Assembly: GCA_026705925.1 (NCBI GenBank)
Contig: JAPOZT010000037.1
Coordinates: forward strand, 117,173-181,172
Source: Gemmatimonadota bacterium
GTDB taxonomy: Bacteria; JAAXHH01
DNA length: 64,000 nt
Reading direction: 5' to 3'
The notes beneath the pieces were generated by a model, which was not told the origin of the DNA, ran no database searches, and saw nothing but the letters and a program-made list of their open reading frames with translations. This document shows positions 7,560 to 25,289 of the stretch, piece by piece. A program made the position numbers and the translations under genes. How positions within the stretch are numbered: position 1 is the stretch's first letter; every line of letters starts with the position of its first letter.

Positions 7560-8972
7560 ATGACCAGTCGCGTCGTTTTGATGATGACCGCGTTGTTCCT
7601 TCTCCTCACGCACCCGGGCGTAACCGCGGCCCAATTGCCGACGGTCGACCGGTCCAACCTGGTCCTCGAACTGCTGTTCGACGGCGACGCCCGGGATACG
7701 AGCGGAAACGGGCATCACGGCGAAGTGTTCGGTCCGGTCTCCACGGACGACCGGTTCGGGCAGCCGAATGCGGCCTTTGCCTTCGACGGAAAGAACGACC
7801 ATATCCGCGTCGCGCCGCCGCCGGCACTGTCCAGCGAGGCCTTCACCCTGTCGGTCTGGGTGAAATACGACGACGACGCATTCTCCCGGTATTGGACCAA
7901 CGGGGTCATCACGCAGGACAACGGCGGCTCCAGCGAACGACGCGTCTTCCAACTCAGCGCATTCGGCCCCTTGCCCACGTGGCATATCATGGGCCGGGGC
8001 CGCGATCCCCTGATTACCCGTCCTGTCGGGACCTCTGTCTGGCGGCACCTGGTCGCTACCCACGACGGCAAGGTACACCGATTTTACATGGACGGTGAAC
8101 TGCATGATCAGGCCGAAGCACCCTTCCCGCCGCACCCGCAGGAACCTGTCTACGTCGGACGCAAGGGTTCGGGCGAAGCGGATTTCTATTTCAAGGGCGT
8201 GATCGACGACGTCCGTATCTACACGGAGACGCTCTCTCCGGAGGCCATCCTGGCCCTGACGCGGGAGAACGGATGGCAGCCTCCGGCCCTGCCGGGCATC
8301 GAAGTACCGGATCCGCCGGAGTCATCGATCGAAGACGCCCTCGTGGCCCACTGGCCGATGGATTCCGACGAAATGCGCGACGTGTCGGGCAGTGGATTGA
8401 AAACCATCGTGATGGGACAACCGGAGTCCATTGAAGGTCTAAAGGGCAGAGCGCTGCGGTTCGATGGCAGCGATGACTGGGCGGTGGTTAAAAACCCGTC
8501 GCTCGACCTCCTCCACTACCTGTCCATTACGTGCTGGATACGGGGATTCGATATCGATAGCGAGTACAGCCAGGTACTCTGGTACGGTGACGGGGCCTGG
8601 GGACAGGACCCCTATTCCATGTCGATACAGGGAGGGAAGGTCGGATTCCGCGTGGACGACGTGGCGACCCAATGGGAAGTGATGACCGAATCGGCACCCG
8701 CGCCCGATGCCTGGACGTTCGTGGCGGCGACGTTGAATACCCGGCCTGACGGACTCATGGATCAGAAAATCTACGTCAACGGTGTACTTTCCGTGGAACA
8801 GGTGACGGAGAAACCCTACCGGTACATCGAACTGGGCCGCATGTGGCTGACCTTCGCTACTTTCGGGAGCGGATGGGACCTGTCGCGCCTGGACCTGGAC
8901 GACGTCAGACTGTATAACCGCCCGCTGAGCCACCGGGAGATCGAATCCCTTTTCGAAGATGCACAGGAGTAA
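7560..8972 (+). CDS. LamG/concanavalin A-like domain protein, secreted
   Basis: Signal peptide MTSRVVLMMTALFLLLTHPGVTAAQ; two LamG-type repeats (LVLELLFDGDARDTSGNGHHGEVFG; ALVAHWPMDSDEMRDVSGSGL). Confidence 0.85.
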   Translation: MTSRVVLMMTALFLLLTHPGVTAAQLPTVDRSNLVLELLFDGDARDTSGNGHHGEVFGPVSTDDRFGQPNAAFAFDGKNDHIRVAPPPALSSEAFTLSVWVKYDDDAFSRYWTNGVITQDNGGSSERRVFQLSAFGPLPTWHIMGRGRDPLITRPVGTSVWRHLVATHDGKVHRFYMDGELHDQAEAPFPPHPQEPVYVGRKGSGEADFYFKGVIDDVRIYTETLSPEAILALTRENGWQPPALPGIEVPDPPESSIEDALVAHWPMDSDEMRDVSGSGLKTIVMGQPESIEGLKGRALRFDGSDDWAVVKNPSLDLLHYLSITCWIRGFDIDSEYSQVLWYGDGAWGQDPYSMSIQGGKVGFRVDDVATQWEVMTESAPAPDAWTFVAATLNTRPDGLMDQKIYVNGVLSVEQVTEKPYRYIELGRMWLTFATFGSGWDLSRLDLDDVRLYNRPLSHREIESLFEDAQE

Positions 8973-8976
8973 CCGC

Positions 8977-10332
8977 ATGAATCGCAACGAAGGTCCAGCA
9001 GACGAAGCGTCGGTCGGCCGGATCGAATCGAAGGACACAGCAATGGACGAACCGGGAAGCCGGCGGCGGTTTCTCAAGGGCGGTCTCGCGGCGGCGGCCG
9101 GTGTCGCGGCGTCCTCGATGTGGGACGCGACGGCGTTCGCGCAGGAGAGCGAAGCGCCTCCCTCCGGTCCGCCCGACAGGATCGACGATGAAGCCTACTG
9201 GGAGAAGGTCCGCGCGCAGTTCCACCTGAATCCTGATACCATCTATCTGAACAACGGGACCCTCGGTCTGTGTCCGAAACCGGTCACGCAGGCGGTCTAC
9301 GACGGGTACGTGTATCTCGCGGAAGCCGGCAGCGAGGGAAGGTCCCAGCTATGGGACGAAGTGGAGGCTAGCCGGAAGACGGCCGCCCGGTTTCTGGGGG
9401 CGGGCGAGAACGAAATGGTGCTGACCCGGAACGCTACGCAAGGACTGAGCGTCATCGCGAACGGGATCCGGATGGAACCGGGGGACGAAGTGCTCATGAC
9501 TTCGGATGAGCACATCGCGGGCATCCAGCCGTGGACGCGCCGTGCCCGGCGATTCGGCATTCAGGTCAATCAGGTTCAGATCCCCAGTCCGCCGAAGAGC
9601 AAACAGGAAGTGGTGGACCTGTTCGAACAGGCGCTGACCCCGAGGACGAAAGTGGTTTTCTTCTGCCACGTCACCCGCGGTCCCGGCCTGCTCTACCCGG
9701 TCAGGGAACTGTGCGACATGGCCCGCGAGAAGGGCATCGTGTCGGCGGTAGACGGCGCGCAGACGCCTGGCATGACCCCCGTCAACCTGCATGAAATGGG
9801 GTGCGATCTCTTCGCCACGAGCCTCCATAAGTGGGCGCTGACCCCATCCGGCACCGGATGTCTGTACGTCCGGGAAGGATTCCAGGAGACCTTCTGGCCC
9901 ACGTCCGACGGCAACGGCCCGTGGGACGACCGGGAACAACAACTCTGGCGCATCGGCCCCCACGGCACGTATGAGAGACCCATCCGGGCCGCGATAAAAC
10001 CCGCGCTGGACTTTCTGAATTCCATTGGAATGGACACGATTTACGCCCGCGACCGCATGTTGTCCGACTATCTGAAGGAACAACTCATGGAGATGCCCGG
10101 TATCAGCCTGGGAACCTCCACGGACCATGGGCTGTCGAGTCCGGGCATCACTTCCTTCGGCGTAGAGGGATGGGACACCTCGCTTCTTCGAGGCATCCTC
10201 CGCGGAAAGGCCGGCATCGTCGTGAGCCGGGACCAGAGACGATCACACGATATGATCCGGGTATCCACCCACTTCTACAACACGCCGTCGGAGATCGATC
10301 GACTGCTCGAGGTGATGAAGGAAATCCTGTAG
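8977..10332 (+). CDS. Class-V aminotransferase (isopenicillin-N-epimerase-like) with Tat signal
   Basis: ATG preceded by AGGAG; twin-arginine motif SRRRFLKGGLAAAAGVAASSM; PLP-lysine region CDLFATSLHKWALTPSGTG. Confidence 0.85.
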   Translation: MNRNEGPADEASVGRIESKDTAMDEPGSRRRFLKGGLAAAAGVAASSMWDATAFAQESEAPPSGPPDRIDDEAYWEKVRAQFHLNPDTIYLNNGTLGLCPKPVTQAVYDGYVYLAEAGSEGRSQLWDEVEASRKTAARFLGAGENEMVLTRNATQGLSVIANGIRMEPGDEVLMTSDEHIAGIQPWTRRARRFGIQVNQVQIPSPPKSKQEVVDLFEQALTPRTKVVFFCHVTRGPGLLYPVRELCDMAREKGIVSAVDGAQTPGMTPVNLHEMGCDLFATSLHKWALTPSGTGCLYVREGFQETFWPTSDGNGPWDDREQQLWRIGPHGTYERPIRAAIKPALDFLNSIGMDTIYARDRMLSDYLKEQLMEMPGISLGTSTDHGLSSPGITSFGVEGWDTSLLRGILRGKAGIVVSRDQRRSHDMIRVSTHFYNTPSEIDRLLEVMKEIL

Positions 10333-11664: not shown

Positions 11665-12843
11665 ATGTCACTGACCGCAGACGTTCGGGCCATGCTGCCC
11701 GACCTGGACGGATACGCGTATTTTCAGACCAGCGGGTTCTCTCCCAAACTGAATCCCGTCGTCGATGAAGTCGTCCACTGGCTGAAGTTCCAGAGCCGGG
11801 GCCCCGCCCTGCCTTTCGTCACCCGGCAGATCGAGGAACTGAAGCGGGACATCAGAGGCAAGGTCGCCCGTACCGTCAATGCCACGCCAGAAGAAATCGT
11901 CATGACGGAAAACACCACGATCGGTATCAACATCGTGGCGAACGGCATCGACTGGAAACCGGGCGACAACGTTCTGCTCACCAACCACGAGCACCCGGGC
12001 AACCGGCTGACCTGGTACAACCTGACCGGTCGGTACGACGTGGAACTGCGGTTCGCGCCGATGTACAACGACCTCGGCAGAACGCTCGAAGAGATGGACC
12101 GCCTGATCGACGGCCGCACGCGACTCGTCAGTGTCAGCCATGTCTCGAGACGCACGGGTCTGCGCCTTCCTGGCCGGGCAGTCTGCGACCTGGCCCACGG
12201 GAAGGACACGCCTGTCCTTTTTGACGGCGCGCAGTCCTTCGGGGCCATACCGATCGACGTGCGGGAGCTTGACTGCGACTTCTACAGCTTCTGCGGGCAC
12301 AAGTACACCATGGCGCCGCAGGGCACCGGGGGCCTGTTCATCCGCAAGGACCGCATCGATTGGCTAAAGCCCAGCTGGATCGGGTCCCACTCTCAGAAAA
12401 CCTTCGACCAGGAAGGAAACATGGACCTGCACGACGAAGCCCGGCGTTTCGAGTTCGCCACGCGGAGCGTGCCGGACCAGGCCGGTTTCGGAAAGGCCCT
12501 GGATATCTGGGAAGGGCTGGGTTGGGAAGCGATTTTCGCCGGCATCGCAGCGTACACGGACCGGATGAAGGCCGCCTTGCTCGAGATTCCGGAACTCGTG
12601 CTGGAAACGCCGGCGTCCTACGATGATTCATCGGGCATCGTTACTTTCCACGTGCCGGGCCTGGAGGCGGGTCCCCTGTCGGAGAGCCTGCAGCAGCATG
12701 AGAAAGTGCTGGTCTCCCCCCTCGAATTCGCGGCGGAAAGCACCCGCGTTTCCACGCACGTGTTCAACTCGGACGAGGATCTGGAGCGGTTAACGTCGGG
12801 GATCCGAAGGGTGCAGAGAGAGGGGTTGGAAGCGTCGAATTAG
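11665..12843 (+). CDS. Class-V aminotransferase (isopenicillin-N-epimerase-like), cytosolic
   Basis: ENTTIGINIVANGIDWKPGDNVLLTNHEHPGN; PLP-lysine CDFYSFCGHKYTMAPQGTGG. Confidence 0.9.
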   Translation: MSLTADVRAMLPDLDGYAYFQTSGFSPKLNPVVDEVVHWLKFQSRGPALPFVTRQIEELKRDIRGKVARTVNATPEEIVMTENTTIGINIVANGIDWKPGDNVLLTNHEHPGNRLTWYNLTGRYDVELRFAPMYNDLGRTLEEMDRLIDGRTRLVSVSHVSRRTGLRLPGRAVCDLAHGKDTPVLFDGAQSFGAIPIDVRELDCDFYSFCGHKYTMAPQGTGGLFIRKDRIDWLKPSWIGSHSQKTFDQEGNMDLHDEARRFEFATRSVPDQAGFGKALDIWEGLGWEAIFAGIAAYTDRMKAALLEIPELVLETPASYDDSSGIVTFHVPGLEAGPLSESLQQHEKVLVSPLEFAAESTRVSTHVFNSDEDLERLTSGIRRVQREGLEASN

Positions 12844-15075: not shown

Positions 15076-15801
15076 TTAGACCACCATGGGCGTCTGGAGC
15101 ACGGTCAAGCCCATGTCGATATACTTCTGCCGGTCCGATGGGTCCAGGAGCGCCAGGCTGACGGCGACGGACGTTCCCTCCATTTCCCGGGCGACGTGGC
15201 GGACGCAATCGTCCAGAGTCCGGAATGGCGGGTTCCGGTACCGTTCGATGTCGTACATGAGATCGTTGGGCCCGAAGGTGAGGACGTCTACGCCCTCCAG
15301 CGCCAGTTTCCGGCAATTGATGACTGCGTCTACCGATTCGAGCTGAAGCCACAGCACGCCCGTGTCGTTCCACCAGGCTGCGTACTCGAGGCGGTCGTCA
15401 CGCCCGGCAATACCGTGGCGCGCGCTTCCGCCCCAGCTTCTTCCTCCGAACTGCGGATAGTAGAAGAAATGGACGGCCTCGCGCACCGTGGCTTCCTCCC
15501 TGACTTCGGGAACGAGGATGCCCGCGGGGCCCAGGTCCAGGTAGTTCCCCACCAGGTAGGTGTGCCGGGTATGCTTGATTCGCAGGATCACCGGTACGCC
15601 CAACGCCTCGGCTGAGGCGCAGAATGAGACAATTCGGTCCTCGCTCTGGGGGCCGTGCTGGCAGTCCACGTTGAAGAAATCGATCTCGCCTTGCTGTAGA
15701 AACCGTTCCAGGTCCTCCCGGCCGGAATCCATGGATACCCCCAGGCCGGTCACGATTTCGCCGCTGCGAATGCGGTGTTTCAATGAAATGGGCTGGACCA
15801 T
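15076..15801 (-). CDS. HpcH/HpaI aldolase family protein
   Basis: Start at MVQPISLKHRIRSGEIVTGLGVSMDS; ORF has FFNVDCQHGP and LQLESVDAVINCRKLALEGVDVLTFGPNDLMYD. Confidence 0.88.
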   Translation of the reverse strand: MVQPISLKHRIRSGEIVTGLGVSMDSGREDLERFLQQGEIDFFNVDCQHGPQSEDRIVSFCASAEALGVPVILRIKHTRHTYLVGNYLDLGPAGILVPEVREEATVREAVHFFYYPQFGGRSWGGSARHGIAGRDDRLEYAAWWNDTGVLWLQLESVDAVINCRKLALEGVDVLTFGPNDLMYDIERYRNPPFRTLDDCVRHVAREMEGTSVAVSLALLDPSDRQKYIDMGLTVLQTPMVV

Positions 15802-15833: not shown

Positions 15834-16577
15834 CTATACCTTTGTCAGTACCTGAAGTTGTACTGGAGTATCTACACGGATCACCGCCGAGGGATGACGC
15901 CTCAAGGTTCGTTCGAGGAGGCGCCGGTCCGCGACGGGAATATGCGCCTTGTCCCACCACCGGGCCCTGCACCGGTCGAACAGCTCCAGGCTGTCGAAGT
16001 AGTGCCGAAATACGAAATCGATGCGCGCACTTGACGCGAGCATTCGGCCGGCGACCGCCTCGGCCACCACCCGGTCCGCGAGATGAAAGTCGACGTATTC
16101 GCGGGCCAGCGTGGCCACCAGGTTCACTTCATGGGCGACCTGGCAGTATACCTGCTGCCTCGCGTGTCGACGTTTGCCAAGGCTTGCCGGGAAATACGGA
16201 CGGATGTCGACGACCCGGCCACCGGGCTTCAGTACGCGAATCGATTCGTGAAGGGCATGCCCCATGCCCTCTTGTCGCACTCATCACAAAGACCACGAGT
16301 ACAGGGCCAGGTCGAAACTCCGGTCCTGAAAGGGCAGGCGGGACGCATCGGCCACGGCGAAGCGCGCGATGCCGTCCAACCGCTTCCGGGCATGGGCGCG
16401 CCCGACGTCATTCCCGGCCATATCGACCCCGACGATGGATTCGATCCATCCCCTGATTCGGTTCGACAACCGGCCGTCGCCGCAACCAATGTCGAGGACG
16501 CGCGCGCCGGCAAACGGTACGTGCCGCCTGAGTATCCGCGTTTCCCGCCGTTCCGGATCTACTCGAACGCCCTTCAT
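15834..16577 (-). CDS. SAM-dependent methyltransferase with two tandem in-frame TGA codons; candidate selenoprotein (or nonsense-interrupted gene)
   Basis: One continuous frame: MKGVRVDPERRETRILRRHVPFAGARVLDIGCGDGRL...FDLALYSWSL-(TGA TGA)-VRQEGMGHALHESIRVLKPGGRVVDIRPY...LTKV-TAG. AGGAG lies 6 nt before the ATG. Both halves are methyltransferase-like with no frameshift. Confidence 0.7.
16251..16271 (-). promoter_or_regulatory. Candidate bacterial SECIS hairpin
   Basis: mRNA GAGGGCAUG-GGG-CAUGCCCUU: 9-bp stem including one G-U, loop GGG starting 18 nt after the second UGA; 3-bp GUG/CAC lower helix possible. Confidence 0.55.
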
Positions 16578-16618
16578 GGCGCACTCCTGGCACTATTGAT
16601 GTCGGGCCAGACCGGACA

Positions 16619-17623
16619 TCAACCCAGTCCGGCCACCTCTTCGATCTCGACCCAGCTGCCGGTTTCCTTCGACTGCTCTATGGCCAGTCCCGTGAGGTAC
16701 AACCGCGCTGCCATCCTGGCGTCGGTGCGGTTCGGCGTGCCCTTTTCCACGGCGTCCAGGAAATCGGCGACGCTTTCCGCCTCGCCGGGCCAACCGCCGA
16801 CCACCGGCATCGCGGGCTCCACGTGGATCGTTTCGCCTTCGGGACCGGACTTGCTGCGCAGTTTTATTGTGTTGCGAAAATAGTCGACGAGCAAGTCGCC
16901 TTCGTCGCCGGTCAACTCGATCGTGGTCTCCAGCGTATCGACCGAGTCGATGTTAAGGTGGATCGTGCCCCAGAGGCCGCCGTAGTCGAAATGGACCAGG
17001 CTGTGGAACTGTCGCCGGCCCGGCTGCCCGTGGCCGTCCATGACGAGCACCTTGTCCGGCGAACGGCCGATGATGCTGTTCAACCCGTCCACGTACCAGG
17101 GCCCCAGGTGGTGAGCGAGGCACAGGTCCGGGCCGCCGAATTGCGCCCAGTTGCTTCGCAGTTTTAGGTGGACGGTCTGCGGCACGCCGATCGCGCCCTG
17201 CCGCAACAGTTCCGCGGCGCGGCGAATGACCGAAGCGTAGCCGATTTCAAGATCGCCGTGGGTGACCTGGCCGGCCGTGACCAGCCGCTTCAGCATCCTG
17301 CGTATGTCGTCAGGACGGTCGGCGAGCGGCGGTTCGTAGTAGGCGGCGACCCCCGCGTCGAGGACGGCATCCATGGCTGCCTCGTGGATGGCATCGGGTA
17401 TGGCCATCATGACGGCATCGAGTTCGGGACCGTCCAGCAATTCCTCGAAACCGCCATAGACCTGCACATCCGGACCCAGTTCCTCACGGATGCGATCCTG
17501 GGACGCTTCGCTGAACGCCGCGGCGGAAACGATCACTACCCGGTCGTGCTGCCGCAGGGCGGGTACGAAGGCTATCCTGGACCAACCTCCATATCCAATC
17601 AGGCCGACGCGAACGCTGGTCAT
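16619..17623 (-). CDS. Gfo/Idh/MocA-family oxidoreductase
   Basis: VRVGLIGYGGWSRIAFVPAL; YEPPLADRPDDIRRML. Confidence 0.88.
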   Translation of the reverse strand: MTSVRVGLIGYGGWSRIAFVPALRQHDRVVIVSAAAFSEASQDRIREELGPDVQVYGGFEELLDGPELDAVMMAIPDAIHEAAMDAVLDAGVAAYYEPPLADRPDDIRRMLKRLVTAGQVTHGDLEIGYASVIRRAAELLRQGAIGVPQTVHLKLRSNWAQFGGPDLCLAHHLGPWYVDGLNSIIGRSPDKVLVMDGHGQPGRRQFHSLVHFDYGGLWGTIHLNIDSVDTLETTIELTGDEGDLLVDYFRNTIKLRSKSGPEGETIHVEPAMPVVGGWPGEAESVADFLDAVEKGTPNRTDARMAARLYLTGLAIEQSKETGSWVEIEEVAGLG

Positions 17624-23042: not shown

Positions 23043-25289
23043 CTATCTCAACAGCTCAACGATATCCTGGTGCCCGGCTTTCTCCGCACGCGCCAGCGGG
23101 GTCGCCCACTCCGCGCCGCCGCCCCGGGGATCCGCGCCCCGCTCCAACAGGTATGCCACAAGGTCCCGGTGTCCCCATCGTGCGGCCCATCCCAGCGGGG
23201 TGGAGCGCCACTCGTCGTCGACGGCCTCGACGGACGCGCCGCGGTCGAGCAGCAGGGCGGATTTCTCCACGTCGCCGATCACGGCCAGTTTGTGCAGGTA
23301 GGTGACGCCGTGCCAGTTCGCGTTATTGGGATCGGCGCCGTGGTCGAAGAACAGGTTCAACATGTCGAGGATGTCGTTATTGGGGGTCAGGGCGCGACCG
23401 TCCAGATGCCAGCCCTTGCGCCGGCGGAACGCGTAGCCCATGTAGTTGTTGGCATACCAGGGCCGGTTCAGTTCCGCCCCCGCCCGGAGCAGCATTTCGA
23501 TGATCTCCCTGCGGGCGAAACCGGCCGCCATGCAGAGCACACCGTAGTCGCCGCCATAGTTGGCCAGGCCGGGATCCGCGCCGAGGAGCTCGCCGACCAC
23601 CGGGATGTTGTCCAGCAGCACGTACATGCTGATGTCGGCCGTCGCCCCGTGCCGGTACAGCAGGTTGATCATCTCCTCGTTCTTTCCCTGGCCCAGGGCT
23701 TGGGAGAGGGGCACGCCGCTGGATTCCACCGGGGCGTTGGGGTCGGCACCGTGATCGAGCAGCAGTTTCGCCGTTTCCATGTGATTGCCGGCCACGGCTT
23801 CGTACAGCGCGTGTCCCCGGGGCGCGTTGTGTTCCGGTGCGTTGGGATCGGCTCCGTGGTCCAGCAGAAGCTGCACGATGTCGCTGTATCCCTGTGACGC
23901 CGCGCTGAACAGCGGGGAGTGTCCGCAGGTATCCTGGTCGTTGGCCAGGTTTCGGTCTTGTGCCAGGAGTGCTCCAACGCGCCGTTCGTCCCCCAGGGCG
24001 CACGCGACCGTCATGCTGTAGTTCGCTCCTCTTGCGATCAGGTATCCGGTCAGCAGCGGATTCAGGCCTCCCCTGGACTTGCGCGCGCGAAACACGGCCA
24101 CGTGCAGCGGTTTGCATCCATCCCACCTGACCGGATCCGGATCGGCCCCCCTGTCCAGCAGCAGGGCTGTCATTTCCAGGTTGTGCTCTTCCACGGCCTC
24201 GTGGAGGGGACGGTTGCCGCGTTCGTCCGAGGCATTGATCAAATCGGGAGAAGCCTCGAACAACGCCCGGGCCGCCGCAAGGTCACCTCGCCGGACCACT
24301 TCGCAGGCACGTTCGCCCACGGGCGGCGCGTTGTACCTGGAAGCGATGGCGTCCGTCAGGAGTCCGGCGATCACGTCGTACCCACGGTCCCTGGCCCGTT
24401 CGAGCGGCGGCACGTGATAATCGAGTCCTGACGCCGACGAAGGATCCGCGCCGTGGTCGAGCAACAGGCGGACTGCCTCCGTGTGCTCTTCCCGGACGGC
24501 GAAGTGCAGGGGCTGGTAGTACGCCCAGTTGCAATTGACCAGGCCGGGATCCGCATCCAGCAACTTCCTGATGCTGCCCAGGTCTCCTTCCACCGCAGCC
24601 AACAGCATATCCCAGACTTTGTCCGGCTTTCCATCCATGAAATGGCCTTGCTCGCTCTTGAAATCGGGTCGTATCCAATGCATAACTCGGTCTCCGAAGG
24701 TTTTGTTTACAGACGGCGCGTGACCGTTCAGTTCGCTTGATAAAGTGCGAAGCAGACTCGGCTTCAGCTTGTTCCGTGCTTCGAACAGCCTTTTGCGTAC
24801 CGTTCCCGCTTTCAGTCCCATGAAGTTTGCGATTTCAGATGCCGAATAGTCTCCAATATACCGCAGTACAGTTACTTCCCTTAGTGTTTCCGGCAATGTT
24901 TCCACCGCGCTGCGGACTTTTTCACTCATGTCCCTGCGTGCTGCCCGGTCCAGGGGACTTTCATCCGTCGCCTCGATGTCACCTTCCATGGGTACGAAAC
25001 GGTGATTATTTCGTCTCTTGAACCGGAAACACTGCCACTTTATGATCCGCCTCAGCCAGGCTGGGAACGAATCCGGCTCGCGAAGCGATTCGATGTGCTG
25101 CCATGCGGCGATGAATCCTTCCTGCGCGGCATCTTCCGCCAGGTGCCGTTCGCCCAGAAGTCCCAGCGCGTAGCCGAAGGCCATGTCCTGGTAATTGGCC
25201 ACCACCTCGCCGAAAGCGGTACTGCGTTCCGCATGAGGTAAAGACCGGTCGGCTGAAACCCGAATGTGTTGTTTGAGGTCGTTGGTCAT
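23043..25289 (-). CDS. ECF sigma factor fused to a long ankyrin-repeat domain
   Basis: N-terminal sigma region 2 (DMAFGYALGLLGERHLAEDAAQEGFIAAWQHI) and region 4 (SAVETLPETLREVTVLRYIGDYSASEIANFMGLKAGTVRKRLFEARNKLK), followed in the same 748-aa frame by many ankyrin repeats. Confidence 0.93.
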   Translation of the reverse strand: MTNDLKQHIRVSADRSLPHAERSTAFGEVVANYQDMAFGYALGLLGERHLAEDAAQEGFIAAWQHIESLREPDSFPAWLRRIIKWQCFRFKRRNNHRFVPMEGDIEATDESPLDRAARRDMSEKVRSAVETLPETLREVTVLRYIGDYSASEIANFMGLKAGTVRKRLFEARNKLKPSLLRTLSSELNGHAPSVNKTFGDRVMHWIRPDFKSEQGHFMDGKPDKVWDMLLAAVEGDLGSIRKLLDADPGLVNCNWAYYQPLHFAVREEHTEAVRLLLDHGADPSSASGLDYHVPPLERARDRGYDVIAGLLTDAIASRYNAPPVGERACEVVRRGDLAAARALFEASPDLINASDERGNRPLHEAVEEHNLEMTALLLDRGADPDPVRWDGCKPLHVAVFRARKSRGGLNPLLTGYLIARGANYSMTVACALGDERRVGALLAQDRNLANDQDTCGHSPLFSAASQGYSDIVQLLLDHGADPNAPEHNAPRGHALYEAVAGNHMETAKLLLDHGADPNAPVESSGVPLSQALGQGKNEEMINLLYRHGATADISMYVLLDNIPVVGELLGADPGLANYGGDYGVLCMAAGFARREIIEMLLRAGAELNRPWYANNYMGYAFRRRKGWHLDGRALTPNNDILDMLNLFFDHGADPNNANWHGVTYLHKLAVIGDVEKSALLLDRGASVEAVDDEWRSTPLGWAARWGHRDLVAYLLERGADPRGGGAEWATPLARAEKAGHQDIVELLR

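Follow-up and report, generated by a model that had tools for sequence, protein, structure and literature searches.

The window, a stretch of 64,000 nucleotides from a Gemmatimonadota contig, contains on its minus strand a frame (16577..15834) that runs from ATG to TAG without frame change and comprises 247 codons before the stop. Codons 98 and 99 both read TGA (window 16286-16281) and are the only internal stops. An earlier note, made without database searches, had described this single frame with its TGA pair, a SAM motif upstream and an LKPGG motif downstream of the pair, and an AGGAG ahead of the ATG; all of this held. The features of the locus are the following.

15834..16577, minus strand: UU methyltransferase gene, 247 residues if each UGA is decoded as Sec (Pfam Methyltransf_11; 14 full-length homologs)
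16584..16588, minus strand: Shine-Dalgarno-like AGGAG, 6 nt before the methyltransferase ATG
16284..16286, minus strand: UGA-1, codon 98, proposed Sec (TGA in 14/14 homologs; hairpin loop starts 21 nt downstream)
16281..16283, minus strand: UGA-2, codon 99, proposed Sec (TGA in 14/14 homologs; hairpin loop starts 18 nt downstream)
16251..16271, minus strand: SECIS-like hairpin (7-bp core pairing 16269-16263 with 16259-16253; loop GGG at 16262-16260; two further outer pairs)
15834..16280, minus strand: downstream half, codons 100-247 (reading frame conserved, purifying selection; translation inferred)
16619..17623, minus strand: upstream neighbour, a GFO/IDH/MocA oxidoreductase (context only; TGA is its ordinary stop)
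15076..15801, minus strand: downstream neighbour, an HpcH/HpaI aldolase (context only)

Purine runs resembling AGGAG precede the ATG in most methyltransferase homologs. Besides the oxidoreductase and the aldolase, the neighbours in the window include an Ldh_2 dehydrogenase, in an order that matches L007. This context is common within the genus, as seen in L007, and different in other genera; because the neighbours vary in this way, the substrate cannot be read from them, and we dropped the neighbourhood as a guide to it. Elsewhere in the window we observed a fusion of a sigma-70 family factor (regions 2 and 4) with a long domain of ankyrin repeats (23043-25289, minus strand) and two genes close together that resemble class V aminotransferases by eye (8959-10332 and 11665-12843, plus strand).

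The TGA pair separates two recognizable parts of a methyltransferase, with VLDIGCGDG in the upstream half and RVLKPGGRVV in the downstream half. The read-through frame matched Pfam Methyltransf_11 with 68.5 bits over residues 28-123 (cut-off 21.2), while the first half alone gave 47.6 bits. As the whole frame outscored the first half, the two halves form one domain. The protein fulfils the criterion for a class I SAM methyltransferase, a Rossmann core that spans SAM motif I to the segment following beta4 (fold search E 3e-12).

The earlier note had proposed that the pair is recoded as Sec-Sec and that a search for selA, selB, selC and selD would be a suitable check. The genome that contains the methyltransferase encodes all four: SelA (5e-134), SelB (322.6 bits, over cut-off), a tRNA-Sec with anticodon TCA that adjoins selB, and SelD (254.7 bits) within an 802-residue frame. 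In this last frame (L060:142-2550; G000:C23) SelD is the C-terminal part, and the N-terminal half resembles, on visual inspection, an FAD/NAD(P) oxidoreductase. Across the phylum, a strong SelA was found in 15 of 16 genomes and tRNA-Sec in 13. UGA is the ordinary stop of 4 of the 14 neighbouring genes that were checked, and two relatives end the methyltransferase gene itself with UGA. Thus, UGA has not been reassigned in these organisms.

Conservation of the pair was assessed at two depths. Five near relatives emerged when GTDB r220 was scanned with each species represented by one genome; they are MAGs titled Latescibacterota or Gemmatimonadetes. Their genes are 77-97% identical to that of the window, have TGA-TGA at the same codons and are otherwise open. 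When 16 genomes of the phylum were searched with a profile, 14 proved to have a full-length homolog, representing 4/5 genera and 3/3 families; eleven of these genomes belong to one genus, its family contributes one more from a second genus, and the last two come from other families. The three homologs outside the main genus share 42-49% identity with the window protein. In each of the 14 the internal stops are precisely two adjacent, in-frame TGAs at the same site, within the aligned motif S-(W/C)-S-(L/Y)-U-U-V-x-x-(E/K)-G-M-G-H-A, a recurrence far beyond chance. Since the same TGAs occur in independent assemblies, sequencing error is ruled out.

The two genomes of the 16 that lack the methyltransferase gene are G007 (87% complete) and G013. 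The latter (L141; listed completeness 99%) has no strong SelA, tRNA-Sec or tandem-Sec methyltransferase and has kept a TGA-containing peroxiredoxin. An argument from phylogenetic profiles, based on the joint lack of SelA and the methyltransferase in G013, was dropped for this reason. The missing SelA and tRNA-Sec could reflect assembly gaps; the genome may lack contigs or be contaminated, or it may have lost the Sec trait recently.

Outside the phylum, a search of 384 genomes returned only distant methyltransferases (at most 66 bits) without internal stops, with varied residues at the positions aligned to the UGA pair. Viral contigs and plasmids likewise contained distant methyltransferases only, the best plasmid match (Halobaculum) having SYNGID at the site and not Cys-Cys. 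No close homolog with Cys-Cys or other sense codons at the UGA sites was found in the 384 genomes, plasmids and viral contigs. The earlier note had named a conserved UGA-UGA or Cys-Cys at the aligned positions as supporting evidence; the first was met in 14/14 homologs and the second was not. Homologs with Cys aligned to the UGA are the rule for bacterial selenoproteins but no strict requirement, and a selenoprotein without them is already known (PMC12013277).

Comparison of the window gene with ten homologs of the same genus gave dN/dS values of about 0.06-0.41 upstream of the UGA pair and of about 0.07-0.28 downstream of it. Both halves are therefore under purifying selection, and from this and from the conservation of the frame we infer that the second half is translated; there are no expression data.

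The strongest evidence added to the earlier note, which did not mention it, is a SECIS-like hairpin. The sequence directly 3' of UGA-2 is GUGCGACAA-GAGGGCAUG-GGG-CAUGCCCUU, and the hairpin GGGCAUG-GGG-CAUGCCC, with its core stem and GGG loop, can form in all 14 homologs, the loop lying in each 18 nt from UGA-2 and 21 nt from UGA-1. PMC13188914 quotes a model of the bacterial SECIS that specifies a loop of 3-9 nt with a G in the first two positions, a stem of 4-16 bp, a distance of 16-37 nt from the UGA and an energy of -7.5 kcal/mol or lower. The methyltransferase hairpin meets this model, with a 3-nt loop starting with G, a 7-bp core in all homologs and both spacings within range. Folding 44 nt of the hairpin region of the homologs gave energies of -11.5 to -17.5 kcal/mol. 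About 4% of synonymous recodings of the window gene alone form a stem this long, so that the case for the hairpin rests on its conservation and not on one sequence.

This conservation extends to synonymous positions. Among 47 alignment columns with an invariant, degenerate amino acid, five show no synonymous variation across the 14 genes; four of these five are hairpin codons (Gly104, Gly106, His107 and Ala108; chance 5/178365, about 3e-5). The core is unvaried across the 14 homologs except for one compensated pair, G-C to A-U, in the G001 homolog; covariation is limited to this pair because the hairpin barely varies. An Rfam scan of the region matched no family.

A second protein of the same genome served as an internal standard. 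It is a peroxiredoxin-like protein with the motif RGWIGYW-U-PLC (UxxC) and one in-frame TGA (G000:C19:6608-7180; L129, also L093). This TGA is kept in 15 of 16 genomes, and in 15/15 it is followed by a hairpin with a 7-8-bp stem and a 3-nt loop (GGG, GGA or GCT) that starts exactly 21 nt after the TGA. As design and spacing are the same, the methyltransferase hairpin has the SECIS design of the phylum and is in register with UGA-1; from UGA-2 the distance to the hairpin is shorter by one codon than in the peroxiredoxin. Of the matches to the same loop sequence in a pattern search of the genome, 30 were examined and gave only the peroxiredoxin; the other 21, including the methyltransferase, were left out.

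The conservation of the UGA pair, the hairpin and the downstream frame, together with the presence of all four Sec genes, is shown by these data. They make it very likely that this class I SAM methyltransferase, with Sec-Sec (U98-U99) after beta4, represents a new selenoprotein family; the evidence is comparative, with nothing direct on selenium or on expression. It is likely, with only slightly less certainty, that a single SECIS directs two adjacent UGAs in succession, yielding a natural Sec-Sec dipeptide beside the methyltransferase active site. In the mechanism that we propose, SelB and tRNA-Sec would decode both adjacent codons, guided by the one hairpin within the coding sequence. UGA-1 would be read at 21 nt from the loop, the spacing used by the other selenoprotein of these organisms, and UGA-2 at 18 nt, still within the published 16-37 nt. 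Decoding of both UGAs as Sec, rather than of one, is inferred. In the usual picture of bacterial Sec insertion, each hairpin serves a single UGA from a fixed distance, and to our knowledge one bacterial SECIS serving two adjacent UGAs has not been demonstrated. The Sec-Sec reading of the earlier note is thus supported, with selenium in the protein and Sec at both positions remaining unproven. The note had also listed three outcomes that would refute it: a genome without Sec machinery, homologs lacking Cys or Sec at the two positions, and resequencing that removes the TGAs. None was met; there was no resequencing, and the TGAs recur in independent assemblies.

We considered four other explanations. 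In the first, Sec is inserted at UGA-1 alone and translation terminates at UGA-2, so that the product is a short protein with Sec as its last residue. In its favour, only UGA-1 has the 21-nt spacing of the other selenoprotein, and two adjacent inefficient recodings would yield little full-length product. Against it, the 148 codons after UGA-2 are kept in frame in 14 genomes under purifying selection, and the LKPGG segment downstream completes the methyltransferase domain. We judge this alternative very unlikely.

A split gene, in which the first half stops at UGA-1 and the second half is re-initiated separately, for example at the ATG of Met105, appears highly improbable as well. Met105 is invariant and has a purine-rich run upstream, and the conserved hairpin might regulate initiation. 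However, the codon right after the UGA pair is GTG in 12 homologs and GTC in 2, so that it is no conserved start; the ATG of Met105 is part of the conserved stem, and no more than about 2 nt separate it from the purine run; the split would cut one Rossmann domain; and the machinery and the hairpin fit Sec decoding.

There is similarly very little likelihood of programmed readthrough inserting an ordinary amino acid, such as Trp, at both UGAs. A conserved tandem UGA followed by a stem-loop does resemble some readthrough signals. However, UGA acts as a normal stop in the four neighbouring genes mentioned above, at least some of the 14 lineages should have a sense codon if an ordinary residue sufficed, the hairpin matches that of the UxxC selenoprotein, and all Sec genes are present. 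Finally, decay into a pseudogene, or a mistake in sequencing or assembly, suggested by two in-frame stops within an otherwise complete gene, is all but excluded, because the same two stops occur in 14 genomes from different assemblies with no other lesion and dN/dS is far below 1; the view of the earlier note that decay is unlikely thus held.

With the Sec-Sec methyltransferase as the preferred reading, its structure was modelled with AlphaFold from the 14-row alignment, Sec being written as Cys (pLDDT 80, pTM 0.79). In the predicted model, residues 98-99 directly follow strand 88-94 (beta4). The loop after beta4 touches the methyl acceptor in this methyltransferase superfamily; from this we infer that the selenolates face the substrate and that those of U98-U99 line the methyl-acceptor pocket. 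The only other Cys kept in all 14 homologs is Cys32 of SAM motif I. The role that we favour, which on present evidence falls a little short of being probable, is that the vicinal selenolates would bind or activate a soft substrate for methyl transfer; the acceptor is undetermined, and methyl transfer activity is itself inferred. Such a substrate could be a thiol or selenol, or else a metal or metalloid (arsenic, mercury and tellurium are examples).

Two consecutive UGAs sharing one hairpin, at 21 and 18 nt, make double action of SelB and its tolerance to spacing testable. A methyltransferase with vicinal selenolates would be chemically well placed to handle soft metals or to take part in redox control. 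Searches based on Cys/UGA pairs would miss a family of this kind, since it has no known Cys homologs. No NCBIfam model scored over its cut-off with the window protein, and no natural tandem Sec-Sec in bacteria was found in the full-text literature searched; most subscription journals were outside its scope, so that priority is uncertain.

A 2026 review (PMC13188914) lists 119 prokaryotic selenoprotein families, including double-Sec methyltransferase proteins (MduS, ArsM fusions), none with a UU motif. MduS, the methyltransferase domain-containing double selenoprotein (NF045649), shares with the window protein a methyltransferase domain and two predicted Sec, but its motif in that review is CxxU instead of UU, and the window protein did not qualify as a member (33.7 bits, cut-off 380). 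The ArsM-type selenoproteins and fusions NF041537 (ArsM_AhpD_UU), NF041536 (ArsM_DUF2284_UU) and NF047649 (MTase_UXPK_star) are also SAM methyltransferases with Sec. Their Sec motifs are UxxG or CxxU, not UU, and the scores of the window protein (46.7, 40.0 and 46.8 bits, respectively, for cut-offs of 510, 575 and 460) fell far short of membership, the match being distant and covering only the shared methyltransferase core (residues 23-141).

The nearest solved structures are methyltransferases of the TleD, RebM, SpnF and MitM type (E about 1e-11, TM 0.5-0.6). TleD, RebM and MitM (PDB 5gm1, 3bus and 8zc8), which act on small molecules, are the closest solved proteins in both sequence and fold, but they lack Sec and share about 20% identity with the window protein at a modest TM-score; its Sec-Sec aligns with Cys-His in TleD and with His-His in RebM. 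Two closely placed Sec also occur in the Prx-like 2 family of marine metagenomes (PMC2398784), where they form UxxU, with two residues between them, and are not adjacent. The Prx-like UxxC selenoprotein of the same genomes resembles the methyltransferase in its 7-bp stem and 3-nt loop placed 21 nt after the UGA, and differs from it in having a single UGA and a thioredoxin-type fold.
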